Virus record (IMG/VR): IMGVR_UViG_3300033986_000111
Span: 1 to 46,212 of that record
Direction: 5' to 3' (one strand)
Source: a virus
DNA length: 46,212 nucleotides
This document shows, piece by piece, positions 28,358-44,159 of the stretch. Position 1 is the first letter of the stretch. Every line of letters starts with the position of its first letter. The notes under the pieces were generated by a model, which worked only from the letters and a program-made list of their open reading frames with translations, made no database searches and was not told the origin of the DNA. Position numbers and translations under genes: made by a program.

Positions 28358-28366
28358 GTGATGCAT

Positions 28367-29002
28367 ATGGATTTTTACATCCTGTCTCCCGACGGCCAAG
28401 ACCTCCACTTTCCGGTTAACCCGTCGGAGGTCACGGTTGAGGGAGCAAAGAAAATTGAGACGGTTTCAATTATCAACATCGGCGATGTTGATTTCCCCGT
28501 AGGCGATGAGCTGACGGGGATTTCTTTTAGTTCGTTTTTCCCCCGGGATTATGACCCAAGCTATTGCCAGTACGCGGGAATTCCAAGCCCAGAGGAAGCT
28601 GTGAAGCGCCTTATTACATTGCGGACAGCCGGGAAACCGGTTCGTCTTCTGATCACGGAAACATCGATAAACACACTGGTCCTCATTACCCGTGTTGTGC
28701 ATCGTTATGTAGGTGGAGAGCCCGGAGATATCTATTTTGAGCTAGCCATGCGGCAGTGGCGCGAGGTAAAGGTCAGGAGCATTACCCAGGTAGCGCCAAC
28801 CGCGCCGCCCAGGCCGAGGCCGGACACCAAGCCGGCTCCAAAAATATATGTGGTTAAGCCGGGAGATAGTCTTTGGAAGATTGCCAAACTCCAGCTCGGG
28901 AATGGGGCACGATGGCAGGATATTTACGCTACAAACAAAGGGGTTATAGGCCCTAATCCAAACCTGATCTACCCAGGGCAAAAGCTGGTGATGCCCGCAT
29001 GA
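28367..29002 (+). CDS. LysM tail/baseplate protein (XkdP-like)
   Basis: ATG 28367 with GTAGGTGATGCAT upstream; two earlier in-frame starts (28358, 28361) lie in that ribosome site. The 211-residue protein begins with the XkdP pattern (FYILSPDGQDLHFPVNPSEV, VSIINIGDVDFP, ISFSSFFPRDYDPSYCQY). It ends in a LysM domain (about 160-210: YVVKPGDSLWKIAKLQLG, YPGQKLVMPA). It probably links the tape measure or hub to the baseplate and may touch peptidoglycan. The stop overlaps the next ATG (ATGA). Confidence 0.9.
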   Translation: MDFYILSPDGQDLHFPVNPSEVTVEGAKKIETVSIINIGDVDFPVGDELTGISFSSFFPRDYDPSYCQYAGIPSPEEAVKRLITLRTAGKPVRLLITETSINTLVLITRVVHRYVGGEPGDIYFELAMRQWREVKVRSITQVAPTAPPRPRPDTKPAPKIYVVKPGDSLWKIAKLQLGNGARWQDIYATNKGVIGPNPNLIYPGQKLVMPA

Positions 29003-29997
29003 TTACCCCTGGCCTAATAACTTATGATGTAGTTCTTGCAGATAAATGGTCGCTGAAGGAGATTGTAGAGAGTATTTCTATCGAGGAAAGTCTGGACGAG
29101 ATAGCAGCGAGGGCCACAGTTGTGATAGCAGTTACTCCAGATTTTCCGGGCATTGCTCCGGGTCAGGCCATGCGCGTGAGCGGCGTACCCTTCGGTGGTA
29201 ATACTATGGCGGTATTGTTGGACGGAGTGATATGGGAATGTGACTCGGTCACTCGAGGGCAAAAGCACCTTACGGCCACCGTATATGACCGAAGCATTTA
29301 TTTAGCCCGAAGCGAGGACGAATACCTATTCCCTGCTGGGCAGACGGCTACTCAGAGACTGAAACGATACGCTGCAGACTGGGGTATCCCTTTGGGCCAG
29401 GTAGCAGACACCGGTGTCATCCTTGCGAAGGCTGTTTACAGGGCGCAACCCATTTACAATATGTTACTCGCCGACTTACGGGAGACTGTAAATAAGGGTG
29501 GCGGGATGTTTCGACCCAGAATGGTCGGCACCACCCTAGACCTGGTGACTCTGGGGAGCAACCGGACAGTATGGGTCCTGGAAGCCAATCAGAGCGTCGA
29601 AGAAATCAATCAGCATCGTAGCTTAGAAGGGGCCGTCACGCAAGTGAAGGTCCTTGGAGCTGCACCAGAGGAAGGCCGTTCACCTGTCCTCGCGTTGGAA
29701 AAAGGCGAGACTGCCAAGTACGGCACTCTTCAGCGTGTTATCCAGGACCCGAAAATCACCACTGCCGCAGCTGCAAAGGCAGCGGCCAAAGAAATGCTGG
29801 TGGGCGCCCAGGAAACCATCACGGTCACAGCTTTGGACATAAATACCATTCGCGCCGGCGACAAGGTCCAACTCAATGGCATGGACCTCCTGGTCGCGTC
29901 AGTTCGGCATAACCTTGGAAGTCCTGGACACATGACCTTAGAATTGGCAGCGGAAAGCTACATAAGGAGGCGGTATTATGCCAAGGGACCCGTATAA
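28999..29997 (+). CDS. tail hub protein (XkdQ-like)
   Basis: ATG 28999 overlaps the previous stop. The 332-residue protein matches the XkdQ/YqbQ hub family. It contains YDVVLADKWSLKEIVESISI, the GTL-type DLVTLGSNRTVWVLEAN, VKVLGAAPEEGRSPVLALEK and the C-terminal ITVTALDINTIRAGDKVQL. Such proteins form the gp27-like ring at the top of the tail tip. It lies in the conserved order LysM-hub-DUF2577-DUF2634-baseplate J. Confidence 0.88.
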   Translation: MITPGLITYDVVLADKWSLKEIVESISIEESLDEIAARATVVIAVTPDFPGIAPGQAMRVSGVPFGGNTMAVLLDGVIWECDSVTRGQKHLTATVYDRSIYLARSEDEYLFPAGQTATQRLKRYAADWGIPLGQVADTGVILAKAVYRAQPIYNMLLADLRETVNKGGGMFRPRMVGTTLDLVTLGSNRTVWVLEANQSVEEINQHRSLEGAVTQVKVLGAAPEEGRSPVLALEKGETAKYGTLQRVIQDPKITTAAAAKAAAKEMLVGAQETITVTALDINTIRAGDKVQLNGMDLLVASVRHNLGSPGHMTLELAAESYIRRRYYAKGPV

Positions 29998-30415
29998 GGA
30001 ACTTGCTGGGCTTATCGAGCAGCGGGCCGCTGGTCACGCGGGCCGGGTTGCCTCTACCCTGCCAGCTGAGCTTGGCACCATCACCCAAACCATGGCCCTG
30101 AAACTTGACCGCTTCCGTCACGAGATACAGGATTATCTTGTGGCCGACTGGGAGTTAAAAATCGAACTTCCACAGGCCTCGAGGGTGATAAAAACAGCGG
30201 CCCCAGTCAACCCAGACGGTAGCGATGTCCCAGGAAGCACCCAATATTCAAGTCTTAGCAGGCTGGATTTCAATGTGCAAGGTATGGGCGATCCGGCCGC
30301 CACGGTAAAGGTCCACCTCAACATGAAAGCTGGCCTTAAACCTGGTGACCGGGTGCTGGTTCTCCCGGTGAACGGAGGGCAGGATTTTGTAGTGTTGTGC
30401 AAGGTGGTGAGTTAA
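29978..30415 (+). CDS. DUF2577 (XkdR-like) baseplate protein
   Basis: ATG 29978 overlaps the hub gene by 20 bases, with TAAGGAGGCGGTATT upstream. The 145-residue product has a helical N-terminus (PRDPYKELAGLIEQRA), then LGTITQTMALKLDRFRHEI, a central LPQASRVIKTAAPVN and a C-terminal VHLNMKAGLKPGDRVLVLPV, the DUF2577 signature ending with a beta-barrel-like strand. Probable baseplate component near the hub or spike. Confidence 0.87.
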   Translation: MPRDPYKELAGLIEQRAAGHAGRVASTLPAELGTITQTMALKLDRFRHEIQDYLVADWELKIELPQASRVIKTAAPVNPDGSDVPGSTQYSSLSRLDFNVQGMGDPAATVKVHLNMKAGLKPGDRVLVLPVNGGQDFVVLCKVVS

Positions 30416-30868
30416 ATGCCATCTCTTTTTCCAACTGAACAGGTAACAGCGGCTCCAGAGGAAACACAGACCAGCCAAGTCAAATATGGCAGGTCTTTTA
30501 TCTTTGATTTTGAACAAGGGGATTTTGTTCTCTCCCCTACAGGCAAGGTGGTGGAAGCAGATGGCGTTGAGGCCTATCGCCAGTGGGCACATAAAACCCT
30601 ACTTACCCCACGGTACCGTCATCCCATTTACTCGCGAAATTATGGGCAGGAATTTGAGGACCTTTTGCGTCGCAATCTTACTCGGGCTGGGAACGAAAGC
30701 GAGATTAAGAGGATGGTTACCGAGGCGCTCATGGTTGACCATCGCACAGCCTCCGTAGGGGATTTTACATTTGATTGGCAGGAGGACACAGTTTATTTCA
30801 CCTGCACGGTCACGACGGCTCAGGGTGAGCAGGTGCAAGTCTCCGGCCAAGTGCAGGGGGTGAGCTAA
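30416..30868 (+). CDS. DUF2634 (XkdS-like, gp25-related) baseplate protein
   Basis: ATG 30416 follows directly on the previous stop, with GGTGGTGAGTTAA upstream. The 150-residue product shows FIFDFEQGDFVLSPTGKVVE, VEAYRQWAHKTLLTPRYRHP and IYSRNYGQEFEDLLRRNL, then a helix IKRMVTEALMVDHR and closing strands. This is the DUF2634/gp25-like sheath initiator, which templates sheath polymerisation at the baseplate. The next gene begins directly after its stop. Confidence 0.88.
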   Translation: MPSLFPTEQVTAAPEETQTSQVKYGRSFIFDFEQGDFVLSPTGKVVEADGVEAYRQWAHKTLLTPRYRHPIYSRNYGQEFEDLLRRNLTRAGNESEIKRMVTEALMVDHRTASVGDFTFDWQEDTVYFTCTVTTAQGEQVQVSGQVQGVS

Positions 30869-31981
30869 TTGGCTGACATTGTGTTACCTGATTTTCTTCA
30901 GGATGAGACTGAAGAACAGATTATGGCCAGAATGATTGCGCGTTTGCCGTCAGACCTGGATGTGTCAGAAGGCTCTTATCTTTGGGATGCTCTAGCGCCA
31001 GTTGCGGCAGAGATTGTCCAGATGAAGATGGAGGCTAGGGAGATCCTCAAGCGGGCATTTATACAGTTTAGTTACGGTGAGTATGTGGATGCCCGGGTTG
31101 CCGACCGTGGGATAACGCGAAAACCGGCGGTCAAAGCAACAGGCCAGGTGCAGGTGACGGGTACGCCGGCCACGGTCATTCCGGCGGGAACTGTGTTTTC
31201 AACTACCGCTAACCTAGTTACGGGAACGGCAGCCGTAGAGTTTATTTCAACTGCCCAGGTCACCATCGGGGCTGACGGAACGACATTGGTGGACATTGAA
31301 GCGGTCGAACCAGGTCCGGAGGGGAATGTCCCAGCGGGAGCAATTAATCAGCTTGTGGTTCCTATCGCAGGCGTGACGGCAGTGACTAACCTCCAGGCCA
31401 CCAGCGGCGGTGCATCAGAAGAAAGCGATGAGGCACTGATTGCTCGCTATCTTGAGCAGGTCCAGCGGCCACCTGACACCGGCAACAAGAATGACTATAT
31501 TCGCTGGGCCAAAGAGGTCCCTGGGGTGGGCGACGCTATCTGCATACCGCTTTGGGATGGTCCAGGAACAGTGAAAGTGGTAATTGTGGACAGCACCGGC
31601 GCACCTGCAAATTCGGCCCTGGTCGAGCAGGTGCAGAACTACATTTCACCTGCCCCAGGAACTGGCGAAGGCCGAGCACCAATAGGTGCAAGTGTAACGG
31701 TGACAGCGCCGACAACGGTGGCTATAGATGTTAGCGCTACTCTGTCCTATGCTGCGGGCTATGACCCGGCATCCGTTCGAGCTGAAGTAGAGGCTGCTAT
31801 CGATACCTTAATCAAGGGATTAAGAATTGGTGAAGATGTCCGCTATGCGGCCATCGCTAATGCAATATTTGATACCCCGGGCGTTGCGGATTACTCCAAC
31901 CTATTGGTAAATGGAGGAACGAGCAACGTAGCAATCGCCGAAGATGCTAAAGCGGTTAAAGGGGTGGTGAACTTGACGTGA
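30869..31981 (+). CDS. baseplate J-like wedge protein (XkdT-like)
   Basis: TTG 30869 follows the previous TAA immediately, with CAGGGGGTGAGCTAA as ribosome site; no better start exists. The 370-residue protein carries the baseplate J family features. These are the N-terminal ETEEQIMARMIARLPSDLDV, SEGSYLWDALAPVAAEIVQM, ITRKPAVKATGQVQVTGTP, the SGGASEESDEALIARYLEQV block and GVGDAICIPLWDGPGTVKVV. It forms the baseplate wedge. The end overlaps the next gene's GTG. Confidence 0.92.
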   Translation: MADIVLPDFLQDETEEQIMARMIARLPSDLDVSEGSYLWDALAPVAAEIVQMKMEAREILKRAFIQFSYGEYVDARVADRGITRKPAVKATGQVQVTGTPATVIPAGTVFSTTANLVTGTAAVEFISTAQVTIGADGTTLVDIEAVEPGPEGNVPAGAINQLVVPIAGVTAVTNLQATSGGASEESDEALIARYLEQVQRPPDTGNKNDYIRWAKEVPGVGDAICIPLWDGPGTVKVVIVDSTGAPANSALVEQVQNYISPAPGTGEGRAPIGASVTVTAPTTVAIDVSATLSYAAGYDPASVRAEVEAAIDTLIKGLRIGEDVRYAAIANAIFDTPGVADYSNLLVNGGTSNVAIAEDAKAVKGVVNLT

Positions 31982-33057
31982 TCACTTCTAACCACGGCAA
32001 AGAAATGATGAATAATTCGCCCAGGTATTATCAGACCAGCCGGGTCTTTCAGGCCCACGTAGAGGCTAAGGGCATTGAGCTGGATAACCTGGACGCCATA
32101 ATGAACGACATCGAGGCCCAGTTCTCCGCATCTACTGCAACCTGGGGACTTCGGTACTGGGAGGAAATGTGCGGTCTGCCTGTTAACGAACAGGAACCGC
32201 TTGAAAACCGCAGAGCCAGGGTGTTGGCAAAGTTAAGGAGCTTCCCTTCTGCCAGACACTACGACATACTCAATGTCATTAAATCCTTTGTAAAATCGGG
32301 CAGAGTCGATTTAGCTGTTTATCCTGGTGAGTATCGGTTCGTTGCTATCTTAGCGTCAGAGGCTGAGGCTAATGTGCCCGGAATTCTGGCGGCCATCGAG
32401 GAAGCGAGGCCAGCGCACCTGGCATTTAGCCTAATTCTCGCTATTCTATCACGATATGTGGTAACCCATGAACGCAGGGTAACCTGGCATGTGCCGGTCA
32501 TGTCCGGGATGCCCTCCAACATACGAAGGCTGGATAAGTATCGCCGTAATATAAACGGCGGTTTCAGGTTAAACAGCACGGTCACTCTTGCGCCAATCCC
32601 TGGCCTATCGGGAGTGACCTTGTTGGATGGACAAATCAAACATTCAGCCCGTTATAACTTTCAGTCGCAACGTCAGATGGGCGAAGTAAGAACCCTGGGC
32701 GTACCTCCAGACTATCTGGATTCACGCTATAGGTTAGATGGTCGATTCAAACTTGACTATCAGGTCCAGGACACCAGGTGGTTTTTGGATGGAACTACAT
32801 CAATAGGCTATATGGGGGCATTAACGGGCGGCCTCTCTTTAAATGGCGCATGGTCGCTGAACTTCGCAAGGCGATTGGATGGTGAAATTGTAATAAAGCC
32901 ACGTCATTTCCTTGTTGGTTTTGGGGATGCGCCCCTTCAAACCGAACACCGACAGCTTAATGGGTCGTGGAATATAGGAAATACTCTGGTCACCCATCGT
33001 CTGGCATGGGTCAAATGGCGTGATGGATTGGTAATTGAAAGGGGGTTGGCAAGTTGA
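31978..33057 (+). CDS. DUF2313 (XkdU/YmfQ-like) tail protein, long form
   Basis: GTG 31978 overlaps the previous TGA (GTGA). Residues 1-165 are the DUF2313 wedge protein (MMNNSPRYYQTSRVFQAHVE, WGLRYWEEMCGLPVNEQEP, PSARHYDILNVIKSF). The usual family is about 190-200 residues. This one has a further 190 residues of beta-strands with repeated LDG/LNG-type units (INGGFRLNSTVTL, YRLDGRFKLDYQV, WFLDGTTSIGY, LSLNGAWSLNF, RQLNGSWNIGN), resembling a fibre shaft. It may anchor the tail fibre. The stop overlaps the next TTG start. Confidence 0.85.
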   Translation: MITSNHGKEMMNNSPRYYQTSRVFQAHVEAKGIELDNLDAIMNDIEAQFSASTATWGLRYWEEMCGLPVNEQEPLENRRARVLAKLRSFPSARHYDILNVIKSFVKSGRVDLAVYPGEYRFVAILASEAEANVPGILAAIEEARPAHLAFSLILAILSRYVVTHERRVTWHVPVMSGMPSNIRRLDKYRRNINGGFRLNSTVTLAPIPGLSGVTLLDGQIKHSARYNFQSQRQMGEVRTLGVPPDYLDSRYRLDGRFKLDYQVQDTRWFLDGTTSIGYMGALTGGLSLNGAWSLNFARRLDGEIVIKPRHFLVGFGDAPLQTEHRQLNGSWNIGNTLVTHRLAWVKWRDGLVIERGLAS

Positions 33058-33419
33058 ATGTTGTAACCACAGTATACGGCCGAGAGGCAATGGCAAAGGC
33101 TCACGCTGGCGACGCGTCCCTGCCAAAGATAACTCATATTGCCTTTGGCGTTGGGGGTGGAGCTGGGGTAACTCCCAATCCAAATGCCACTGCTTTGACA
33201 TCAGAGATTATTAGAAAGCCGGTGGCCAGCCATTCATATCCAACGTCCACCACGGTCCGTTACCATGTAGACCTTACTGGTGATGAGATCGGTGGCGCAG
33301 GGATAAATGAAGCTGCACTTATTGATGCGACCGGCAAAGCAGTAGCCATCCAGACTTTCGGAACTAAAACTATCGAGCCTGGCGAAACCGTCGGTTTCGA
33401 TTGGGATGAAGAATTTTAA
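33054..33419 (+). CDS. tail fibre/collar-like protein, 121 aa
   Basis: TTG 33054 overlaps the previous stop, with AAAGGGGGTTGGCAAG upstream. The product shows YGREAMAKAHAGDASLPKIT, HIAFGVGGG, SEIIRKPVASHSYP and GGAGINEAALIDATG, ending GETVGFDWDEEF. This is the phage tail-collar or fibre N-terminal domain pattern, normally at the start of longer fibre proteins. Here the domain stands alone, so it may act as an adaptor between baseplate and the following fibre proteins. Confidence 0.75.
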   Translation: MNVVTTVYGREAMAKAHAGDASLPKITHIAFGVGGGAGVTPNPNATALTSEIIRKPVASHSYPTSTTVRYHVDLTGDEIGGAGINEAALIDATGKAVAIQTFGTKTIEPGETVGFDWDEEF

Positions 33420-33435
33420 GGAGGTGTAATTCCTT

Positions 33436-33801
33436 ATGGCTACTTTAATAGGCATACCAGTTTATAAGAACAACGTAAGGAAACTGGAACCTACTGACCC
33501 GGCGGCTCCAGAAACCTGGGACCCTATCCACCAGGACCTGATTAACAATGACGTCTATCTTAAGCAACAGATTGACAGCATTCAAATTCAGACGTCCCAA
33601 GGCGAGGCCAATTTTGCTTCTACCAACGGGGTAACTATCACCCATAACCTTGGGAACACAAATTATATGGTGAACATTGTCCCCCTGGCCGATACCGGCG
33701 GCGACCTTGGAGACGTGTTTATTTCCAAGGCAGCCAATGCCTTCACGGTCTACAATACCGGGGGCTTTACAGGTTCATTCCGTTGGCAAATAGCCAGTTA
33801 G
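33436..33801 (+). CDS. fibre-region protein with lectin-like C-terminus
   Basis: ATG 33436 with AAGGAGGTGTAATTCCTT upstream. The N-terminus (PVYKNNVRKLEPTDPAAPET) leads into a short helix and a C-terminal beta domain of about 60 residues (GVTITHNLGNTNYMVNIVPL, FTVYNTGGFTGSFRWQI) typical of small fibre tips or H-type-lectin-like domains. The gene sits between the collar-like protein and the gene before the DGR target. Structural role inferred from position and fold character. Confidence 0.65.
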   Translation: MATLIGIPVYKNNVRKLEPTDPAAPETWDPIHQDLINNDVYLKQQIDSIQIQTSQGEANFASTNGVTITHNLGNTNYMVNIVPLADTGGDLGDVFISKAANAFTVYNTGGFTGSFRWQIAS

Positions 33802-33810
33802 GAGGTGTTT

Positions 33811-34188
33811 ATGATGGCAATTATTCAACAAAACCCAGAAAAACCAAACGGAGTTATTAGCATTGACCAAGCTAATCCTGCATGCCTGTCTATATCCCCA
33901 TTCTCTTTCCCGGACGGAAACTGTTTCGGGGGAACGATTGACTTGACCGAATTCCAGGGCGGACCTGCCAGGGTATACCTGGACAAGAACGGCAGCTTGT
34001 CGACCGACCTTTATCGCGACCACTACTGGCTTTTGGCCGAGTGCGTCCTGCCGGAGCGCCAGTTCGACCAGCAAGAAACGGGTATGGTAGACGAGCAAGG
34101 TCAGCCGGTGACCATGATTGTGGAGCGACCGCTGGACCTTAATAACATCGATATTACAGCATTTCCTCTTCCGGAGGTGGTGGAATAA
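33811..34188 (+). CDS. hypothetical tail protein preceding the DGR target
   Basis: ATG 33811 (or 33814) with TTAGGAGGTGTTT upstream. The 125-residue product is beta-rich: PNGVISIDQANPACLSISPF, FGGTIDLTEFQGGPARVYLD, then RDHYWLLAECVLPERQF and VERPLDLNNIDITAFPLPEV. No family recognised. Its TAA abuts the ATG of the DGR target and the target's ribosome site lies inside its last codons, so the two are tightly coupled. A role as chaperone, adaptor or fibre shaft for the variable protein is possible, but unproven. Confidence 0.6.
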   Translation: MMAIIQQNPEKPNGVISIDQANPACLSISPFSFPDGNCFGGTIDLTEFQGGPARVYLDKNGSLSTDLYRDHYWLLAECVLPERQFDQQETGMVDEQGQPVTMIVERPLDLNNIDITAFPLPEVVE

Positions 34189-35730
34189 ATGGCGAACGTT
34201 AGTAAATTATCCATTGCCGCACTTAGAGACAGGATTAACGCAGGCACTCGTGAGGTGGATGTCGTCCATAATTCCAAGGCTGACGGGACTGGCACCACAG
34301 TCGTTTCAAAAGCGATTTATGTCCCAAGATTCCGCATCCCTGCTGGTCTTTGGGATAACGGTGCATTTCCTCCCTACGACCTTAAACTGGGTGGGTTCTT
34401 GTTAGATAAATACCCATGCAGCCAACCCGACGCCACCAGTTCCAGCCGGGGTAGCACTACGGCAAACAGCCCGGGCCAGACTGCAGCCGTGTCCCAGCAA
34501 GGAGTCGTTCCCTGGACCGATATAAACTGGGATAACGCCAAAATCGCCTGTGCAAACCGGAAAACAAACGGGCGTTCTTGGCATCTGGTAACCATGAAAG
34601 AATGGGCTACTATTGTATTTTTAATTAAGTTGTTGGGCCATGATATCAGGGGCAATAACAACTGGGGACGTGACTACCGTGACCCAGACTCCTGGGAGTA
34701 TTACGGCATTGCCGACCCAGTCGTCGCAAGCTATACGGCCAGTTATAATAAGACTCACTCCCGCCTGCTCACAGGCACAGGCCCGATTTCCTATAGCCAC
34801 AACGGGATGGCGAACGGCATCTTTGACATCGTGGGTAACGTCTGGGAATGGGTTGATTTCCTAATTGACTGCGGCCGTTACCAGGCCATTAAGACTGCGG
34901 CCATTAACGATGCGGACGGCATTACCGCTACTGACACTGCCATCGTCATAGACAACGTGCAGAACCCTGAACTTTGGCCTGCCAGCAATGGTTTGGTTTT
35001 AATCAAGGCAGAGGGCACCAACACAGATGAATATGTGCTTTACTCCTCCTTCGTTGATAATGGCAACGGCACCTATACCCTTACTGGCTGCCAGCGTGGC
35101 CAGAATGGCACGGCGGCCAGCGCCCATGCCAACGATGCGGTGGTGCAGCAGATCACCGATTACTGCGTCATCCCTGGCGGATGGACTGCCAAGGTGGCCG
35201 ATGCTGGCCTGAACAATACCACCAGCCCGGCCACGTTTACTATATCCAATCTGGTTAACGGGCCTGGTTGCACTGGCCCTGCTGTAGGAGATGTGCTCCA
35301 GTGTCAAACTGAGCAGATGACCATAACCGCAGTAAGCGGCAACAGTATCACAGTGAGCCGCGGCGCTAACGGCTCGACGGTCGCTGCCCATGCCCAGGGA
35401 ACTGGCATAGCCAAGATATCTCCGCAAATGAGCAATGATAACCCAACGTCCACAGACGCCACTTATGGAGCTTCACAATTCGCTAAGTTCCTGACGATGA
35501 GAACAGAGGCAGAACTGGCAGCACTGGCACTTCCAGCGACCGTTTCCTCTGGCGGAAGCGAGGAATGGAAGGACGGCTTTTGGTTACGGAACTATGGCCA
35601 GCGGGCTGCCCTCCGCGGCGGGAGCTGGGACAATGGCTCGAAGGCCCGGGCGGGGTTCGCGTTGCCCCTGACCAGTCCGCGGTCGGTCGCGAGCATCGTC
35701 TTCGGCTTCCGCGCCGCTTTGTCTCTGTAA
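34189..35730 (+). CDS. DGR target: FGE/C-type-lectin-fold tail tip protein
   Basis: ATG 34189 with CCGGAGGTGGTGGAATA upstream. The 513-residue protein has an N-terminal helix-rich segment, then an FGE-sulfatase/C-type-lectin-like domain (about 45-230). That domain contains PRFRIPAGLWD, WDNAKIACANRKTNGRSWHL and the hallmark GIFDIVGNVWEWVDFL. Two related beta modules follow (about 245-315 and 345-408), each ending in an RG-NG-A-HA pattern. The fold resumes at about 440 and ends with the variable repeat (residues 472-510). Variable positions are 479, 481, 493, 495, 496, 500, 502, 504 and 505. Surface variation on this fold diversifies ligand binding in other DGR systems. It is probably the receptor-binding protein. 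Confidence 0.93.
   Translation: MANVSKLSIAALRDRINAGTREVDVVHNSKADGTGTTVVSKAIYVPRFRIPAGLWDNGAFPPYDLKLGGFLLDKYPCSQPDATSSSRGSTTANSPGQTAAVSQQGVVPWTDINWDNAKIACANRKTNGRSWHLVTMKEWATIVFLIKLLGHDIRGNNNWGRDYRDPDSWEYYGIADPVVASYTASYNKTHSRLLTGTGPISYSHNGMANGIFDIVGNVWEWVDFLIDCGRYQAIKTAAINDADGITATDTAIVIDNVQNPELWPASNGLVLIKAEGTNTDEYVLYSSFVDNGNGTYTLTGCQRGQNGTAASAHANDAVVQQITDYCVIPGGWTAKVADAGLNNTTSPATFTISNLVNGPGCTGPAVGDVLQCQTEQMTITAVSGNSITVSRGANGSTVAAHAQGTGIAKISPQMSNDNPTSTDATYGASQFAKFLTMRTEAELAALALPATVSSGGSEEWKDGFWLRNYGQRAALRGGSWDNGSKARAGFALPLTSPRSVASIVFGFRAALSL
35601..35719 (+). repeat. DGR variable repeat (VR)
   Basis: 119 bp at the 3' end of the target gene, matching the template repeat 602 bp downstream at 105 of 119 positions. 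Twelve of 14 differences fall where the template has A (A to G, C or T). The other two are T to G (35643) and C to G (35681). The last 17 bp (CGGCTTCCGCGCCGCTT) match exactly and are GC-rich, as expected for the initiation-of-mutagenic-homology part. The VR stops 11 bp before the end of the coding sequence. Confidence 0.95.
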
Positions 35731-35759
35731 ATCTGAAATCTGATTACTGAAAATCTGAT

Positions 35760-35779
35760 GGCCTCGCGATAGCGAGGCC
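35760..35779 (+). promoter_or_regulatory. DGR target-site hairpin, 8-bp stem with GATA loop
   Basis: GGCCTCGC (35760-35767) pairs perfectly with GCGAGGCC (35772-35779) around a four-base loop GATA. It lies 40 bp after the VR end and 29 bp after the target stop. Phage DGRs are known to need a short GC-rich hairpin or cruciform with a four-base loop downstream of the VR for efficient retrohoming, and this has that shape. It lacks a T-run, so terminator function is less likely. Confidence 0.8.
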
Positions 35780-35806
35780 TCAGCTTTGAAAGGATTTTGT
35801 TAGCGT

Positions 35807-36175
35807 ATGGAACAAAGAGAGAACCAAAGTCGGCCAAGAGATGGAACATTTCTTATCGCCCAAAAGTGCGAGGACATGATTCTCTATGGGTATAAGGCCT
35901 TACAACAGTTTCCCAAATCGGAAAAACACACGCTGGCCGCCGAGATGAAGCGGTCAATGCTTAACATCCAGCGGCTGATTATAACGGCTAATCTGCGCTA
36001 TTACAAAAAGAACACTTTGGAAGAGCTAGACGTGGAGAAAGCTATCCTGATGTTTTACCTCCGTCTCTCGCGACGGCTGGGTTTCTTGCCGCCCAAAAAG
36101 TATGAGATTTGGGCCGGTATGTTGGAAGAAATCGGCCGCATGATAGGCGGATGGTTTAAGTCCATCAGGAAGTAA
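35807..36175 (+). CDS. avd: DGR accessory variability determinant (Avd)
   Basis: ATG 35807 with GAAAGGA about 10 bases upstream. The 122-residue protein is basic and almost wholly helical, with about four helices (roughly 14-33, 40-64, 70-90, 97-118) and the Avd pattern. Segments include EDMILYGYKALQQFPKSEKH, LAAEMKRSMLNIQRLIITAN and VEKAILMFYLRLSRRLGFL. The family forms a barrel-shaped pentamer of four-helix bundles that binds the reverse transcriptase and template RNA. Its place between VR and TR is the standard order in phage DGRs. It is related in fold to the 23S rRNA intervening-sequence proteins. Confidence 0.93.
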   Translation: MEQRENQSRPRDGTFLIAQKCEDMILYGYKALQQFPKSEKHTLAAEMKRSMLNIQRLIITANLRYYKKNTLEELDVEKAILMFYLRLSRRLGFLPPKKYEIWAGMLEEIGRMIGGWFKSIRK

Positions 36176-36202
36176 TTTTTTTGGGGCCTGGACTGACAAT
36201 GT

Positions 36203-36321
36203 GCGGGCTGCCCTCCGCGGCGGGAACTGGAACAATGGCTCGAATGCCCGGGCGGGGTTCGCGTTGAACCTGAACAATCCGCCGTCGAACGCGAACATCA
36301 ACATCGGCTTCCGCGCCGCTT
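36203..36321 (+). repeat. DGR template repeat (TR)
   Basis: 119 bp, non-coding in function, starting 27 bp after avd. It holds 22 adenines, all in AAC, AAT or ATC codons relative to the target frame: ten AAY codons (Asn) and two ATC (Ile). Random change of these A's gives only NNY or NTC codons, none of which is a stop. It is transcribed in the same direction as avd and the reverse transcriptase and is copied into error-prone cDNA. The small frame running through it (from 36201) is the translated template, not a gene. Confidence 0.95.
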
Positions 36322-36484
36322 CGCCTAACTGTGCCAGAAGGCGGGGTCCTACTGGGACAACGTCCAGTGCTTTAGGCAAAGGAGTTCAGGTCCCTGTCGC
36401 GCCGGAAGCCCGGCCGGCAAAAAACATAAACAGGCAGCCCATGGCCAGTAGGTTTGCGACCGTCATGGGCTGCCGCCCTCATAA
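36322..36484 (+). ncRNA. DGR template-RNA spacer between TR and reverse transcriptase
   Basis: 163 bp without a gene. By eye it can form three stem-loops: ACTGG/CCAGT (36351-36355 with 36364-36368), GCCGG/CCGGC (36401-36405 with 36410-36414), and a strong 11-bp stem GGCAGCCCATG/CATGGGCTGCC (36433-36443 with 36464-36474) ending 10 bp before the reverse transcriptase start. In the Bordetella phage DGR the region after TR is part of the structured RNA needed for cDNA priming by RT-Avd. The same role is inferred here. Confidence 0.7.
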
Positions 36485-37573
36485 GTGGTGAGAAAAATAG
36501 CCAAAACATACACCAACCTTTACCCAAAGATTTACGACTTCGAGAACCTGGAGCTGGCTTACATGAAGGCCAGGAGAAGCAAACGGTTCCAGGAGGAAGT
36601 GTTAAAATTCTCCTTTAACCTGGAGAGCAACCTTATCCAGATACAGAACGAGCTTATTTATAAGACGTTCAGGACGGGACAATACCGGTATTTCTGGGTT
36701 AACGACCCTAAAAAACGCCTGGTGGCCGCGCTTCCATTCAAAGACAGAGTGGTCCAACATGCATTGTGTAACGTCGTTGAACCGATTTTTGAGAAAAGGT
36801 TCATTTACGATAGTTATGCCTGTCGTGTTGGCCGGGGTATCCATGCAGGAGCGGATCGGGTAACGCACTTCCTTCGGGTAGCTCAACGGAAATGGGATAG
36901 AGTCTATTGCTTGAAGGCAGATATATCCCAATATTTCCCGAGTATCAACCACGCAATTCTGAAAGCCATCATAAGAAAGCGCATAGCCTGCCCTGATACC
37001 CTCTGGCTGATTGACGAAATCATCGACAGCGGAGGCGATAATAGCGACTGCCCAAGAGGTCTGCCAATCGGAAACCTCACGTCCCAGCTTTGGGCAAACG
37101 TCTACCTGGACCAATTGGACCACTTTGTGAAGGAGGTTCTCCGGGAGCCTTATTACGTCCGTTATATGGACGATTTCGTTATACTGGGCGGAGACAAAGG
37201 GCACTTGTGGCAGGTCAAGCGCGAAATCGAGGGCTTTCTTGCTGACAAGCTCGACCTGCGGCTGAATGGCAAAACTGGTATTTGGCCGATAGGCCAAGGG
37301 GTTGACTTCCTGGGATATCGCATCTGGCCCACACATCGATTGGTCAGGAAGTCGAGCATCAGGAGGATGAAGCGGAAGCTAAAGGCTTTTCAGCGGAAAT
37401 ACAGGGAAGGCAAGATTGATCTGGATAAGATTAACGCCACTATCCAGTCCTGGCTGGGCCATGTAAGCCATGCTGACAGCTATAATTTACGAAATAAGCT
37501 CCTGGGGAGCTTTGTTTTAACTAAAGGAGGCGATGTCTGTGCAGGAGATAAAGACGAGCATGAACATCATTAA
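36485..37573 (+). CDS. DGR reverse transcriptase
   Basis: A 362-residue reverse transcriptase. Motifs are in order: LVAALPFKDRVVQHALCNVV (about 79-98), RVGRGIHAG (about 114-122), catalytic LKADISQYFPSI (D146), GLPIGNLTSQLWANVYL (about 192-208), YVRYMDDFVIL (YMDD at 227-230) and VDFLGYRI (about 275-282). The SQ after GNLT, and the absence of maturase or endonuclease domains, fit the DGR clade rather than group II introns. With Avd it copies the template RNA and misreads adenines. GTG 36485 (or 36488) is used; no clear ribosome site is seen, and the strong upstream stem may tune expression. Confidence 0.95.
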   Translation: MVRKIAKTYTNLYPKIYDFENLELAYMKARRSKRFQEEVLKFSFNLESNLIQIQNELIYKTFRTGQYRYFWVNDPKKRLVAALPFKDRVVQHALCNVVEPIFEKRFIYDSYACRVGRGIHAGADRVTHFLRVAQRKWDRVYCLKADISQYFPSINHAILKAIIRKRIACPDTLWLIDEIIDSGGDNSDCPRGLPIGNLTSQLWANVYLDQLDHFVKEVLREPYYVRYMDDFVILGGDKGHLWQVKREIEGFLADKLDLRLNGKTGIWPIGQGVDFLGYRIWPTHRLVRKSSIRRMKRKLKAFQRKYREGKIDLDKINATIQSWLGHVSHADSYNLRNKLLGSFVLTKGGDVCAGDKDEHEHH

Positions 37574-37590
37574 ACCAGGGGGTGACACCT

Positions 37591-37812
37591 ATGCCGGGTC
37601 CTGAAATCGCACAATACGGCCTCGCTATGTTTGCAGTAGCGGGGTTGATATTTTTAGTTGATAGGTGGATTAGGCAAAAGGGAGACAACGACCTGGCCGA
37701 GGTGGTCCAGAATAACACCAAGGCCTTAGAGAACCTTACGACATTGATACAGGTTAACCTTACCCGCCAGGAGGCCAAGATTGACGAGCTTCTCGAGAGG
37801 GCAAGGCGGTGA
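37591..37812 (+). CDS. small holin/hemolysin-like membrane protein, 73 aa
   Basis: ATG 37591 with CCAGGGGGTGACACCT upstream; an in-frame GTG lies 9 bases earlier within that site. One hydrophobic segment (about 5-25: IAQYGLAMFAVAGLIFLVDR) precedes a basic turn and a C-terminal helix with heptad-like hydrophobics (ALENLTTLIQVNLTRQEAKI). This resembles BhlA/UviB-type small holin-related proteins of Firmicute phages. It opens the lysis cassette. Membrane location is clear; the exact role is inferred. Confidence 0.7.
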   Translation: MPGPEIAQYGLAMFAVAGLIFLVDRWIRQKGDNDLAEVVQNNTKALENLTTLIQVNLTRQEAKIDELLERARR

Positions 37813-37817
37813 TAGCT

Positions 37818-38171
37818 ATGAGGGGTTTTTGGAATGATCCGGACGGGTTCACCATAGAGGACCTGGCGGTTCTTGCGTCCCTGGGGCTGTATGTCTTTGT
37901 AGGGGTGAAAATAGCCCTGGCGGGGGACATTTCCACAAACCAGGTCGATTTTTTCACGGTCCTGGGATACCCAATCATCGCGGCCATTGCCAAGCGGGCC
38001 ATTGAGCGGATCGGCTGGCCTACGTTGGGGCGGCGGGGTCAGGTCTCACCGTACCAGCCACCATACTCTTATGATGGCTATTACTCGCCTCCGCCACAAC
38101 AGGTTTATACCCCGAGAGACGAGGGCGGCGGAGAAGAACAAGTCAGCGCTTCTAATAAACCCACAATTTAA
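37818..38171 (+). CDS. lysis-cassette membrane protein with Pro/Tyr-rich tail
   Basis: ATG 37818 with AGGCGGTGATAGCT upstream (GTG 37809 possible by overlap). Two hydrophobic stretches are seen (about 17-36 and 46-61). A Tyr/Pro/Gln-rich tail follows (SPYQPPYSYDGYYSPPPQQV) and a polar end. The layout suits a membrane protein with a cytoplasmic or surface-exposed flexible tail. Its place between two holin-like genes suggests a part in lysis timing. Family not firmly recognised. Confidence 0.6.
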   Translation: MRGFWNDPDGFTIEDLAVLASLGLYVFVGVKIALAGDISTNQVDFFTVLGYPIIAAIAKRAIERIGWPTLGRRGQVSPYQPPYSYDGYYSPPPQQVYTPRDEGGGEEQVSASNKPTI

Positions 38172-38185
38172 GGAGGTGTTGTTAG

Positions 38186-38989
38186 GTGAGAGTGTGCATT
38201 GATCCCGGCCACGGGGGGAGCGACCCGGGGGCCATGGGGGTAAACGGCCGGACAGAAAAAGAGACCAACCTCCGGGTGGCGCTTCTCGTTGAGCAGGAAC
38301 TAAAGAGCAGGGGCATTGATGTGCTGCTGACCAGGCGGGACGACCGGGACGTTAGCCTCTCCGAGCGGTGCCAGATAGCAAACCGCTGGGGAGCCGATAT
38401 TTTCGTGAGCCTCCATGCGGATGCCGCGGGCGGTCCGAGCGCCAAGGGACACCATGCTATCCATAGTATCCATTCGCAACCCGGCAAGGGCGGCAACAAG
38501 TTGGCCAGGCTTTTAGTGGACCAGGTTAGCCTGGCTACGGGCCGGCAACCCTTCTCCCGGGGAGACAGGGGCGTATGGACCAGAGAGAGCCAGAAGCACC
38601 CGGGAGTTGACTACTATGCGGTAATCCGCGAGACGGACATGCCGGCGGCCATATTGGAGCGCGGTTTCCTCACAAACCCGGAGGAGGCGGCCCTGCTGTT
38701 TGACGATGGTTTTCTGCGGAAACAGGCCCAGGGGATTGCCCGGGCTATCATGATGTACTTCGGTTTAAAAATCGAGGAGGTGGCGGTAGCATTGTTCAAG
38801 GACATCATAGGCCACTGGGCTCAGGGCAACATCGAGCATCTGGCTCAACTGGGGATCGTGCGCGGCCGGGAGGACGGCACTTTCGCCCCGGATGCGCCGA
38901 TCACCAGGGCGGAAGCGGCTGTGATCGTGGACCGGGCCATCGAGTACGTCCTGGCCGAGGTTAAGAAAATGATCAAGGAGGCGGCGTAA
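38186..38989 (+). CDS. endolysin: N-acetylmuramoyl-L-alanine amidase with SLH domain
   Basis: GTG 38186 with AAGGAGGTGTTGTTAG upstream. Residues 1-190 are an Amidase_3 catalytic domain: CIDPGHGGSDPGA with the first zinc His (about 8), EKETNLRVALLV with Glu, FVSLHADAAGG with His and the final AAILERGFLTNPEEAALLF with the catalytic Glu. Residues about 205-255 are a single S-layer homology domain (LFKDIIGHWAQGNIEHLAQL, GTFAPDAPITRAEAAVI). It cuts the amide link between muramic acid and L-alanine. No signal peptide, so release through a holin is expected. SLH domains bind pyruvylated wall polymers. Confidence 0.93.
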   Translation: MRVCIDPGHGGSDPGAMGVNGRTEKETNLRVALLVEQELKSRGIDVLLTRRDDRDVSLSERCQIANRWGADIFVSLHADAAGGPSAKGHHAIHSIHSQPGKGGNKLARLLVDQVSLATGRQPFSRGDRGVWTRESQKHPGVDYYAVIRETDMPAAILERGFLTNPEEAALLFDDGFLRKQAQGIARAIMMYFGLKIEEVAVALFKDIIGHWAQGNIEHLAQLGIVRGREDGTFAPDAPITRAEAAVIVDRAIEYVLAEVKKMIKEAA

Positions 38990-39358
38990 ATGGACGATTT
39001 GCTTTTGCGGATGCTGTATGATGTTCTAGTTCTGCTGGCTACCGTAGCAGCCGGTTATGCTGTAGCCTGGCTCCGTAAGCGCTTGGGCGTTGAGGGTATG
39101 AAGCAGGTTGAAGCAGAACTGGCTGCTAAAGAGCAGCTGGCAGCACTGGCAGTACGGTTTGTAGAACAAGTCTACCGGGACCTGCATGGCGAGCAGAAAT
39201 ATCAAAAAGCCGCCGAGTGGCTGGCGGCCCGAGCTGGGGAGCTGGGCCTGAAGGTGACACCCGAGGAGATCAAGGGCTTAATCGAAGCGGCATTGCGGGC
39301 GTTTAAAGACGAGTTTGGCGAGGAATGGGCTAAGGTGACGAGCAATGCAAGAAACTAA
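38990..39358 (+). CDS. LLH-type phage holin
   Basis: ATG 38990 directly follows the endolysin stop, with CAAGGAGGCGGCGTAA upstream. The 122-residue protein has one N-terminal membrane helix (about 8-28: MLYDVLVLLATVAAGYAVAW). A long charged helical domain follows (VEAELAAKEQLAALAVRFVE, KYQKAAEWLAARAGELGLKV, IKGLIEAALRAFKDEFGEEW), as in the LLH holin family. It would form the membrane lesion that releases the amidase. Confidence 0.85.
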   Translation: MDDLLLRMLYDVLVLLATVAAGYAVAWLRKRLGVEGMKQVEAELAAKEQLAALAVRFVEQVYRDLHGEQKYQKAAEWLAARAGELGLKVTPEEIKGLIEAALRAFKDEFGEEWAKVTSNARN

Positions 39359-39464
39359 ATGCCCTATCTGCGGTAGCGAATGGGACGGTATCGGTATCTG
39401 TCCAGATTGCGAGCTGGACCGAGCTTTGATGGAGGTGGCCGCCGGTGCTTATCAGGATAACTAG
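39345..39464 (+). CDS. 39-aa zinc-ribbon microprotein
   Basis: ATG 39345 overlaps the holin end by 14 bases, with TAAGGTGACGAGCA upstream, and the frame ends at TAG 39462-39464. The product has two knuckles, CPICGS and CPDCEL, 12 residues apart, forming a four-Cys zinc ribbon, then a short helix. Its stop overlaps the next gene's start region. Function unknown. Confidence 0.6.
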   Translation: MQETKCPICGSEWDGIGICPDCELDRALMEVAAGAYQDN

Positions 39465-39642
39465 GGGTAAAGACCTCTACTACCCCGGCGAGCTAATCTC
39501 TGTGGAGGAGGCTACCGCCCAGGAGTGGTTCGCTCAGGGCCTGGCGGAGCCAGCCACATGTCCCGACTGCGGTAGCCAATTGGAGGACGCCGGGTGCCGG
39601 GTGTATTGCCCGGATTGCGGGCTGCGAAAGTGGAAGGATTAA
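39445..39642 (+). CDS. small protein with C-terminal zinc ribbon, 65 aa
   Basis: GTG 39445 with TGGAGGTGGCCGCCG upstream. The N-terminal half (IRITRGKDLYYPGELISVEE) is a small beta domain of the type seen near phage heads and lysis genes. The C-terminal half has CPDCGSQLEDAGCRVYCPDCG, a full CxxC/CxxC zinc ribbon. It ends the rightward late operon. Function unknown. Confidence 0.65.
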   Translation: MLIRITRGKDLYYPGELISVEEATAQEWFAQGLAEPATCPDCGSQLEDAGCRVYCPDCGLRKWKD

Positions 39643-39647
39643 GTTAC

Positions 39648-39720
39648 TTGACAAAAACAGGGGAACCGACACTTTTAAGAAAGCAAGCATATTCCTTTCT
39701 AGCACTAAATAGGGTAGAAT
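39648..39720 (+). promoter_or_regulatory. possible promoter region for the lone gene at 39767
   Basis: The 124-bp gap 39643-39766 is AT-rich. It holds a perfect -35-like TTGACA (39648-39653), but only a poor -10 (ACTTTT) at 17-bp spacing. Further on, TAGAAT (39715-39720) could be a -10 with a weak -35. No hairpin terminator for the late operon was found here. The promoter call is tentative. Confidence 0.35.
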
Positions 39721-39766
39721 AGTAGGTGAAGTAAACTGATATCCCAGAGCGTAAGGGTGCAAATTT

Positions 39767-40225
39767 ATGAGTAAGAACTTTCCACATTGGTTGACAGCAG
39801 ATATAATTCTTCCCCAACTGGTAGAACGATATTGCCGGCTTGCGATTGAGAGCAATGAAAATGATGTTAATATCAGCCTTCTTGACCCGAAAATTATTTG
39901 GTTAGTGCCTCCGGAGGATAGGGAAAAATTCCAACAAATTTACATTGAATTTGCTAGTTTAATGATGCAACTACTCAAACCCACGCTAGATAGATATATT
40001 GGCACCACCAATGAGCCTAAAACCCTTCATTGCTTGAAGGCAGACGTGGAAAATGGACTGCAATCTTTGAAGCAGCATTGCGGATATACGTATAAAGATA
40101 TTCTGCTTATGATGCTCCTCGAAGGCGAAGAGGAGCGGAAACAGATTATCAGCAAGGTTTTGCAGTTGCAACCAGTGCCGATATTTCACATTCGGGGTTG
40201 TTGGGAATTAAAGCCAGTCCCCTAA
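39767..40225 (+). CDS. lone accessory (moron) gene, 152 aa
   Basis: ATG 39767 with GTAAGGGTGCAAATTT upstream. The 152-residue product is soluble and mostly helical, with WLTADIILPQLVERYCRLAI near the start and GYTYKDILLMMLLEGEEERK near 110-130. No known domain recognised. The gene is AT-richer than its neighbours, stands alone between the lysis cassette and the integrase, and is followed by its own terminator. This is the usual pattern of a lysogenic-conversion or defence gene near the attachment site. That role is inference. Confidence 0.7.
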   Translation: MSKNFPHWLTADIILPQLVERYCRLAIESNENDVNISLLDPKIIWLVPPEDREKFQQIYIEFASLMMQLLKPTLDRYIGTTNEPKTLHCLKADVENGLQSLKQHCGYTYKDILLMMLLEGEEERKQIISKVLQLQPVPIFHIRGCWELKPVP

Positions 40226-40244
40226 GTAATTAGGGGCTTTTTTT
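40219..40244. terminator. bidirectional terminator between convergent operons
   Basis: CCCCTAA (40219-40225) pairs with TTAGGGG (40230-40236) around GTAA, followed by C and seven T on the + strand. It overlaps the last codons of the rightward gene and the last codon of the leftward integrase, so it would stop rightward transcription strongly. On the - strand the stem is followed by a weaker U-run, so leftward termination is less sure. Confidence 0.85.
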
Positions 40245-42303
40245 ATTCTTCCAGGACTTTCAAATACTGATTAAGTACGTTAAAATATCGAGGTAAGGGT
40301 ACATGCTTCCCCTGCTCCCAGTTGCGGAGTGTTTTCGGGTCCACGCCTATAGCCAGGGCCATTTCCTCTTTCGTAAGGCCATGATATAGACGGGCTTTGG
40401 TAATACGCTGGCCCAGGGTGTTCTCTGGTAATTTTTCAAAACAGCCCAGGTAAGCGATAGGGACGCCCAAGGCTTTGGCCAGTAATCGTAAGTTAGGCAG
40501 CGCAGCATTGAACTTATCCGCCTCCAAATTCCCGATGGCAGTAACGGATAATCCGGTAGCTGTTGACAGGTCGCGGATGGTCATATTCTTCGCTACCCTA
40601 GCCTGCCTTAAACGAGCGCCTGGGCTATCTCCTGACCACTGGTGGCCCAATAACCACGGCGGCATTTTTGCCCGCCGAACCACAGAAAGGTCAAGGATAT
40701 TCTCTGCACGCTTGGCGGTTCGTGAAACAACCTTGGAGAAAGTGTATCGAGCGGTAACTACTGCCCGGGGACGCCCATTGTCTCCGGGTTTTGTATCTAT
40801 AATTATTTCCTTCACCAGTGCTCGAACAATTTCCCGACGCACTTCAAATGGCGGATTAGCCTCCAGTTTTGCCTTCAGGTCGGCAAGCAGTTCCTCGGCA
40901 GAATTAAACTGCTGGGCTAGCCCTTCCTCAGCCTCGATTTGCTTTTCCAGGTCACGGGCCCGCTGGTCCAGAGACGCCTTTTCCCGGGCAATCTGTTGCA
41001 GCTGCTGTTCTACATCCACACTTCCAATAATGCGCTTTCTGTAGAGGTCGAGAATGCTTTGTTTCTCGGCCTCTTTTTCTTTTGCGGCGTTCCTGACCAT
41101 TTCCAGTTCTGCGGTCAGGGCCGCCTTTTGCGACTTCCTTTCCTCCATGCTGGCGGCCAGTTCCTTAATGGCGTCACCCGGGTTATTGATGAAATCCACG
41201 CAAGCCTGCCACACCATGTCCTCGATCCATTCCTGAGGGACGTTCTTTGATGTACACTTCCCGTCTAGTGGGCCACGGTAAGCCGTTTTGCCGCCGCAGA
41301 CGTAGTAAGACTTAGGTTTTCCTCCAGGGCCACCGTAGGCAGTGCCATGGTAGGTCAGACCGCAGACCCCGCACTTGATAAGACCACGTAGCAGGTATTG
41401 CCGCTTGGCATTCTTCATGGCCTCCAGCTGGTTGTCACGCAGAACCTGCTGGGCTTTTTCCCATGTTTCTTCGGTTACCAGTGCAGGAACTTCCCTGGGT
41501 ATTAGCTCGCGCTTTTTATTGGTTCGCTTGCCATAGTAATGGATGCCTTTGTAGGTAGTGTTCACTACCATGTTCCGGATTCGCCCGGGCCTCCATATAC
41601 CTGCGGTGTTGACCTTGCGCTTTCCTCGTTTTATTTGTCGACCGTCCTTAGTGTAAGACGGCGGCACACCCAGGGCATTCAGGTAATCAGCCACCTTGAT
41701 GGTGGAATAGCCCTGGTCTGCAATAAGGCGGTATATCAGCCGCACCACGTCGGCTTCGCTCATGTCCATGCCAGGGAGCGGGTCCTCGTTAATCTCCAGA
41801 TATCCTTCTTCGTTGACCCGGTACCCGTACGGCACTATACCACCCAGCCACTTCCCCGCGCGGGCGGCACGGTTGGCACCGTACCACATGCGCTCAAGGA
41901 TGGTCTCGCGCTCTAAATCGGCGACGCCGGCCAGGATGGTCAATAAAAAGCGACCATTGGGGTCGCCGGTGTCAAATGGTTCTGTCATGCTGCGGATTTT
42001 AACGCCATGCTGCTCCAAATCATAGACGGCATTCAGAATGATGCGGGCAGACCGTCCCAGACGGTCCAGCCGGTATATTAGGAGCAACTCAAACCGGCCG
42101 GCCTTGGCATCCTCCAGAAGACGGCGTCCTTCTTCCCGCATTTCGAGCGGGATTGTTCCTGTCACGCCATCATCTCGATACCACTCCACTACGTCTAGTT
42201 GGTGAAGGTCACAATATTTCCTGGCAAATTCCAGCTGGTTCTCAATGGTCCCGCGTTCAGCCTGGTCCTCACTGCTTACGCGAGCATAGACGGCTACCCT
42301 CAT
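40243..42303 (-). CDS. int: large serine recombinase (integrase) with two C-terminal HTH domains
   Basis: ATG at 42303 has AAGGGGGTGAAAAA upstream and overlaps the preceding stop. The 686-residue protein has, in order, a resolvase domain (RVAVYARVSSEDQAERG with the nucleophile Ser; YRLDRLGRS), a recombinase domain (GANRAARAGKWLGGIVPYGY, GVPPSYTKDG), a zinc ribbon (LIKCGVCGLTYHG...YYVCGG...GKCTSK) and a long coiled coil (about 380-460). The extra part, about 562-686, is two XRE-type HTH units: LRQARVAKNMTIRDLSTATG, then ITKARLYHGLTKEEMALAIG and VDPKTLRNWEQGKHVP. The core catalyses attP-attB integration. The HTH pair is unusual for this family. Confidence 0.93.
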   Translation of the reverse strand: MRVAVYARVSSEDQAERGTIENQLEFARKYCDLHQLDVVEWYRDDGVTGTIPLEMREEGRRLLEDAKAGRFELLLIYRLDRLGRSARIILNAVYDLEQHGVKIRSMTEPFDTGDPNGRFLLTILAGVADLERETILERMWYGANRAARAGKWLGGIVPYGYRVNEEGYLEINEDPLPGMDMSEADVVRLIYRLIADQGYSTIKVADYLNALGVPPSYTKDGRQIKRGKRKVNTAGIWRPGRIRNMVVNTTYKGIHYYGKRTNKKRELIPREVPALVTEETWEKAQQVLRDNQLEAMKNAKRQYLLRGLIKCGVCGLTYHGTAYGGPGGKPKSYYVCGGKTAYRGPLDGKCTSKNVPQEWIEDMVWQACVDFINNPGDAIKELAASMEERKSQKAALTAELEMVRNAAKEKEAEKQSILDLYRKRIIGSVDVEQQLQQIAREKASLDQRARDLEKQIEAEEGLAQQFNSAEELLADLKAKLEANPPFEVRREIVRALVKEIIIDTKPGDNGRPRAVVTARYTFSKVVSRTAKRAENILDLSVVRRAKMPPWLLGHQWSGDSPGARLRQARVAKNMTIRDLSTATGLSVTAIGNLEADKFNAALPNLRLLAKALGVPIAYLGCFEKLPENTLGQRITKARLYHGLTKEEMALAIGVDPKTLRNWEQGKHVPLPRYFNVLNQYLKVLEE

Positions 42304-42899
42304 TTTTTCACCCCCTTGTATTTCAGGTATTCCGATAAAAACTGTTCGATCCATTGTTTGGTCTGATCATATCTTTGCTGCAGTTCTTCGTTGCTCAAAT
42401 CGCCCTGTTTGGCGTGATATAAATTACCGGTGCGCTTGCCACTTCGCGCCTTGTCCAATTTCCTACAGATAACCTCATAACGATAGTGGTGAACGTAAAG
42501 GAAATGGACATGGTGGAACTTCCTGCCCGTCCAACGAATAAACCGTTCAAACGTAGGGTCATTGTCACGCTCATTGCTGTAAGTAAGGCAATAGAACGGA
42601 CGTTCTTTGAGTATGTGGTTATAAATATCCACATATTCCTCCCAGCGGTCAGTCTTATCCAGGAGCTTCAAGAGAAAGTCGAGCAGTTTCATTTCGTATT
42701 GCTCATAGACCTCTCTTTTAAATGCAGCCTTTTTGATTTCCAGATAATGAAGCAGCATGCCCACCGTGTTAAGGGCACGCTCATAGTCCCGTGTTGCCAT
42801 GACCAGCCATTGAACTGATAGCCACACTGGGTCAGACAATACGACCTTGAACTTTCGTTCAAAGTCGCCATCCAGGATTAGAGAATTTTGCCCGTCCAT
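42300..42899 (-). CDS. unknown protein in the lysogeny operon, 199 aa
   Basis: Starts at ATG 42899, one base after the ImmA-like gene's stop, and ends by ATGA overlap with the integrase. The mostly helical protein contains RDYERALNTVGMLLHYLEIK, EQYEMKLLDFLLKLLDKTDR, WEEYVDIYNHILKERPFYCL and a Tyr/His-rich FHHVHFLYVHHYRYEVICRK. The C-terminus is basic and helical. No family recognised. Position between repressor/ImmA and integrase suggests a part in lysogeny control or integration, or a cargo gene. Confidence 0.7.
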   Translation of the reverse strand: MDGQNSLILDGDFERKFKVVLSDPVWLSVQWLVMATRDYERALNTVGMLLHYLEIKKAAFKREVYEQYEMKLLDFLLKLLDKTDRWEEYVDIYNHILKERPFYCLTYSNERDNDPTFERFIRWTGRKFHHVHFLYVHHYRYEVICRKLDKARSGKRTGNLYHAKQGDLSNEELQQRYDQTKQWIEQFLSEYLKYKGVKK

Positions 42900-44145: not shown

Positions 44146-44159
44146 TTGGAGGTATATCT

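Follow-up and report, generated by a model that had tools for sequence, protein, structure and literature searches.

A complete and apparently recently active diversity-generating retroelement in a temperate contractile-tailed phage related to Bacillota prophages and contigs

Anatomy and assignment of the cassette

Positions 34189-37573 of the window (the whole stretch of DNA analysed, 46,212 nt; positions 1 to 46,212 of IMG/VR record IMGVR_UViG_3300033986_000111) held a complete diversity-generating retroelement (DGR). All parts lay on the plus strand in the order target gene with a 3' VR, GRNA hairpin, avd, TR, structured spacer RNA and reverse transcriptase (RT). It is very highly probable that this is a recently active DGR of the BPP-1/TaqVP type in a temperate, contractile-tailed phage related to Bacillota prophages and contigs. 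The part order and coordinates, including a YMDD RT, held as given in the first-pass annotation, and the reading frames of target, avd and RT, the motifs, the hairpin and the spacer RNA were all intact.

The two repeat copies (35601-35724 and 36203-36326) were 87% identical over 124 nt and 602 nt apart. Besides this VR/TR pair, no direct repeat of at least 30 nt was found in 33000-39500, and neither a further TR copy nor a second DGR target was found elsewhere in the record. VR (35601..35719; target residues 472-510, in frame), delimited by the TR alignment, the A-biased mismatches and the differences from a sister phage, differed from TR (36203..36321; from the repeat search and VR/TR alignment) at 12 of 22 template adenines and at 2 of 97 other bases (Fisher p = 5e-9), exactly reproducing the counts first claimed. 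The two non-A mismatches fell at 35643 and 35681. In the target frame the 22 template adenines were the first two letters of ten AAY codons and the first letter of two ATC codons, so that mutagenesis of adenines cannot create a stop codon; the 12 randomisable codons gave a calculated protein repertoire of about 9e12 to 1e13 sequences. Where a repeat pair could be detected in related loci, nearly all pairs shared the adenine bias; one scan behind this statement listed only pairs with >60% of mismatches at A and so gives no rate of failing pairs.

An 18-bp stretch past the last variable adenine (35702..35719) was identical in the two repeats, which diverged directly beyond it (C in TR, T in VR at 35720 and 35722). 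By analogy with BPP-1, whose IMH/IMH* divergence this resembles, the 18 bp are a putative IMH-like element. A hairpin or cruciform at 35760..35779, 41 nt 3' of VR, had a perfect 8-bp GC-rich stem and the GRNA loop GATA; when 120-nt stretches of the window were drawn at random, 0.35% contained a comparable hairpin. Stem and loop agreed with the rule that Guo et al. 2011 (PMC3240598) give for DGR hairpins, a stem of 7-10 bp and a 5'-GRNA loop, but the distance was slightly longer than their 4 to 34 bp. By an automatic strict search, a perfect stem of at least 6 bp was absent after VR in 14 of 29 loci, and by that measure the hairpin was not universal.

The spacer RNA between TR and RT (36320..36474) scored 57.4 bits against Rfam RF02921 (RT-14; gathering score 48.1) and folded better than 200 of 200 shuffles (z = -4.1). 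The RT-14 family occupied the same TR-RT spacer position in 10 of 15 related loci; the assignment is by score alone, and no publication describing RT-14 was found in the literature searched. In BPP-1 a spacer of this kind brings in the RT-Avd complex and serves to prime cDNA synthesis (PMC12875486).

The avd gene (accessory variability determinant; 35807..36175, 122 aa) encoded a protein that exceeded the cutoff of NF033474 DivGenRetAVD (113 bits; cutoff 80) and matched Pfam bAvd (1.4e-31) and the BPP-1 Bbp7/Avd structure 4dwl. The RT (36485..37573, 362 aa) matched phrog_1423 (2e-149), and its best solved relative was the BPP-1 bRT 8ub7 (1.2e-70). Its motifs were IGNLTSQ (IGxxxSQ) and YMDD, in contrast to the QGGPLSP and YADD of group II RTs. 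On the group II maturase profile it scored 135.7 bits, below the cutoff of 300; a group II or other RT origin was rejected on this sub-cutoff score, on IGNLTSQ instead of QGxxxSP and on gene context. A search for the retron RT family returned sub-cutoff matches only in the genomes searched.

An RT alignment against DGR, group II and retron clades had been proposed as a check. The window RT grouped securely with DGR RTs (99/96 for the nearest DGR-only set), but the union of all sampled DGR RTs as one clade was weakly supported (46/65) in a tree that included group II RTs and no retrons and was disturbed by the long branches of two odd RTs (L186 and L188). Close RT relatives (84-91%) came from viral contigs and from MAGs labelled Halanaerobiales and Tepidanaerobacteraceae, both Bacillota.

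The DGR of BPP-1 (mtd-avd-TR-brt) has the same order of target/VR, avd, TR, spacer and RT and follows the same hairpin rule, and its RT, the best PDB match, was 40% identical to that of this phage. Unlike BPP-1, the phage studied here has a contractile tail and Bacillota-associated relatives, and its target is of the TaqVP line, not Mtd (Mtd E 0.02 by fold). Both the basic DGR mechanism and the fact that phages use it are established, and the cassette is ordinary in type.

Adenine-specific divergence among sister phages

A sister phage (L194; IMGVR_UViG_3300033999_000128) aligned with window positions 28189-35827 over 7,639 bp with no gaps. The two differed at 4 positions in 7,520 bp outside VR and at 20 positions in the 119 bp of VR (p = 1e-33), and 18 of the 20 VR differences fell at template adenines (18 of 22 A against 2 of 97 non-A; p = 1e-15). 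A third variant (L195; 3300033987_000045) aligned over 7,452 bp, with 1 difference outside VR and 3 at template adenines; its alignment ended inside VR. The contigs of both sisters end before TR. The similar sample numbers suggest that the three phages come from sibling samples. With 20 differences in VR and 4 elsewhere in 7.5 kb, homing happened within the life of a near-clonal phage.

Compared with the TR of the window, the L194 VR differed at 13 of 22 adenines and at 0 of 97 other bases. It equalled TR at the non-A sites 35643 and 35681, so both are changes in the copy of the window. In another relative (L084) the target gene differed from that of the window at 7 positions in 900 bp (gene positions 450-1350), and VR differed at 16 of 23 A columns. 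Non-A changes in TR were carried into the VR of the same phage in 2 of 2 cases in L003, 4 of 4 in L009, 2 of 2 in L083 and 5 of 6 in L084. Such tracking by VR of non-A changes in its own TR is what one-way TR-to-VR copying would predict, and one-way transfer with adenine mutagenesis in vivo is indirectly supported by these comparisons of sequence.

An even spread of VR differences over A and non-A positions in related genomes had been named as the observation that would count against a DGR; the differences fell almost only at template adenines. Together with the Avd and RT assignments, the IGNLTSQ motif, the spacer RNA and the concerted change of TR and VR, this A-specific divergence strongly supported DGR identity and mutagenic homing as first proposed. 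The alternative that VR and TR arose by ordinary gene duplication and then drifted, or exchange sequence by plain homologous recombination, beside an unrelated group II or other RT, had practically no probability left. The score of the RT on the group II model speaks for it; against it stand the adenine bias of this cassette, shared by nearly every related locus that has a repeat pair, the Avd score above a curated cutoff, the IGNLTSQ motif, and the hairpin and spacer RNA, and the A-specific divergence of the sister phages already refuted it.

A degenerate DGR, intact in appearance, inactive in this phage and with VR as a relic, was judged highly improbable. The two non-A mismatches in the VR of the window could be drift after homing had stopped, and one member of the phage family has lost the cassette (L200, below), but all reading frames, motifs, the hairpin and the RNA were intact, and the window and L194 diverged in VR far beyond the rest of their sequence.

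In the recently active DGR that these data favour, the mechanism would, by analogy with BPP-1, proceed as follows. RNA of the avd-TR-spacer region would be copied by the Avd-bound RT, which would place random bases opposite template adenines. The existing VR would then be exchanged for the cDNA, with the IMH-like end common to both repeats and the GATA hairpin directing the exchange to the 3' end of the target gene; TR would stay unchanged during homing. In this way 12 codons of a C-type-lectin surface would be randomised at no risk of a stop codon.

The metagenomic phage DGRs described by Roux et al. 2021 (PMC8144416) have tail targets whose VR is C-terminal and lies within a C-type lectin fold, mostly >=75% A mismatches and population-level activity. 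The phage studied here resembled that catalogue in its putative tail target, C-terminal lectin VR, A-biased mismatches and population-level activity. It adds a sequence-complete DGR with public sister contigs that record recent adenine-specific diversification in natural populations.

Target protein, gene slot and host

The best phmmer match of the target (34189..35730, 513 aa) was TaqVP (5vf4; 1.6e-17), the variable protein of a DGR in a Thermus aquaticus prophage (PMC6328139). An AlphaFold2 model built with 48 sequences reached pLDDT 90 and pTM 0.89; in an earlier run with 15 sequences pLDDT was 59 and PDB matches were not significant. Foldseek of the model returned TaqVP first (8e-15), followed by Mtd variants of BPP-1 at a non-significant 0.02. 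Against Pfam, Rcc01698_C scored above its gathering score and FGE-sulfatase below. From the model and these matches the target is confidently predicted to be a variable protein with an FGE-type C-type-lectin fold and a C-terminal VR, most similar to TaqVP. An FGE-type C-type lectin, a C-terminal VR and the VR-avd-TR layout are common to both systems.

The part with GNVWEWVD and the part bearing VR were separated by an insert of beta domains, about 200 residues long (about residues 225-420) and with one Rcc01698_C match. In the shorter targets of several relatives most of this insert was missing, and blastp aligned the two flanking parts only. TaqVP has its insert 2 at the equivalent position of the fold (residues 222-296, 75 residues; PMC6328139), and the insert here is an enlargement of that theme. 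The architecture of the target had been put forward as new; that may be so for the roughly 200-residue beta insert, but not for the presence of an insert at that point of the fold.

The phage encoded a serine integrase and repressors alongside portal, terminase, tape measure and baseplate proteins and a tail sheath (22325-23773; phrog_279, 8e-119), and is a temperate, contractile-tailed phage related to Bacillota prophages and contigs. Megablast of 28000-40000 against a phage collection returned no near-identical named phage. Sheath and baseplate genes lay upstream of the DGR, which followed genes for baseplate J, Mu Gp48 and a tail-collar fibre and preceded an endolysin gene. The gene position and the fold similarity to TaqVP make a tail-associated receptor-binding protein, variation of which would alter attachment to the host, the best inference for the target.

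It is improbable, though less so than a degenerate cassette, that an active DGR diversifies some other ligand-binding virion or secreted protein here, for example one serving superinfection exclusion or benefiting the lysogen. The closest solved relative, TaqVP, is monomeric (PMC6328139), and gene position alone is no proof of incorporation into the virion. Against this, the target gene immediately follows the baseplate and tail-fibre genes and precedes lysis genes, a slot where phages carry receptor-binding proteins; the target Mtd of BPP-1 is arranged in this way relative to avd, TR and RT; and viral DGR targets were assigned mostly to tail proteins by Roux et al. 2021 (PMC8144416).

Two claims of novelty made for the host group and for the placement after a PBSX-like baseplate were not supported. 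The relatives are Bacillota-associated phages, Bacillota MAGs and isolates contain related RTs, and Bacillus phage BalMu-1 (KP063903), itself a Bacillota phage, has an RT 48% identical to this one in the same slot, preceded by XkdT genes and followed by holin and amidase. In the BalMu-1 record target and avd are annotated as hypothetical and TR has no annotation, and the likeness is one of RT and gene slot. Nothing in the sequence pointed to a host with an S-layer or an unusual wall, as had been suggested.

Probable cassette loss and possible template rewriting in related phages

Two related contigs, L200 and L198, were 99% identical on both flanks of a 1,749-bp stretch (L198 3720-5468) that contains the hairpin, avd, TR and RT and is missing from L200, in which the next gene follows directly 3' of the target. 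The L200 VR was an A-only derivative of the L198 TR (14 of 26 A, 0 of 94 non-A). Between the VRs of L200 and L198 there were 20 differing sites, all at template adenines, against 12 differences in 2,520 other bases. The break in L200 lay away from VR or TR, so that repeat collapse in assembly is no explanation; a chimeric contig would be another way to account for the absence. The two contigs form a with/without-cassette pair suited to studying under what circumstances phages retain or discard receptor diversification.

In a second pair, L004 and L005, spacer and RT were 98.7% identical, yet TR differed at 13 sites. At 8 of these 13, an adenine of the L005 TR was replaced in the L004 TR by the base present in the VR of L004 itself. 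Judged from these substitutions, the L004 TR seems to have been partly overwritten by a VR-like tract; alternatively, TR may have mutated and the changes may then have been carried into VR by homing.

Both side findings go beyond the original observation. They would fit a tentative and rather unlikely reading in which the DGR of this phage lineage is a sheddable module: after diversifying the receptor protein, some phages would drop avd, TR and RT together in a single clean step and so fix one receptor (L200 against L198), and in others TR would be rewritten from VR-like sequence, which would fix a portion of the repertoire (L004). If this were general, phages would shift between a searching and a locked state.

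Apparent loss and mosaicism of the cassette

The flanks on either side of the retroelement were 99% identical between the sister phages L200 and L198, and L200 (L200:2640-2900, compared with L198:3580-5520) lacked the whole hairpin-avd-TR-RT cassette of 1,749 bp. The VR retained in L200 was an adenine-only derivative of the TR of L198. By sequence comparison, the DGR looks to have been cleanly and recently lost in L200.

In the related locus L084, avd and TR were separated by an additional small ORF of at most 104 aa (L084:5353-5667), which brought the distance between VR and TR to 897 nt as against 602 nt. Upstream (5') of the target, L084 was nearly unrelated to the window; target and cassette are thus mosaic.

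Changes in the repeats

Between the TR of two related loci (L004:5708-5828 and L005:5708-5825), eight adenines were lost in L004, and at all of them (8/8) the TR base was that of its own VR. Spacer and RT were 98.7% identical between both loci. A VR-to-TR conversion in L004, which would lock part of the repertoire, is possible.

The two non-A mismatches of the window VR (35643, T to G; 35681, C to G) were both absent from the near-identical sister contig L194. The other sister, L195, carried the TR base at 35643, the only one of the two sites within its reach.

Integrase and other genes

A serine integrase (40243-42354, minus strand; one 703-aa frame) comprised resolvase, recombinase and zinc ribbon domains followed by two C-terminal Cro/CI-type HTH domains. 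This fusion seems real, because the related locus L009 had an open stretch of 704 codons with a similar C-terminus. In a 234-aa protein (44142-44846, plus strand), the N-terminus matched HNH endonucleases, the central part repressor-type HTH and the C-terminus anti-repressor families. Adjoining phage genes encoded SbcD-like and SbcC-like nuclease subunits (1500-5281, plus strand).
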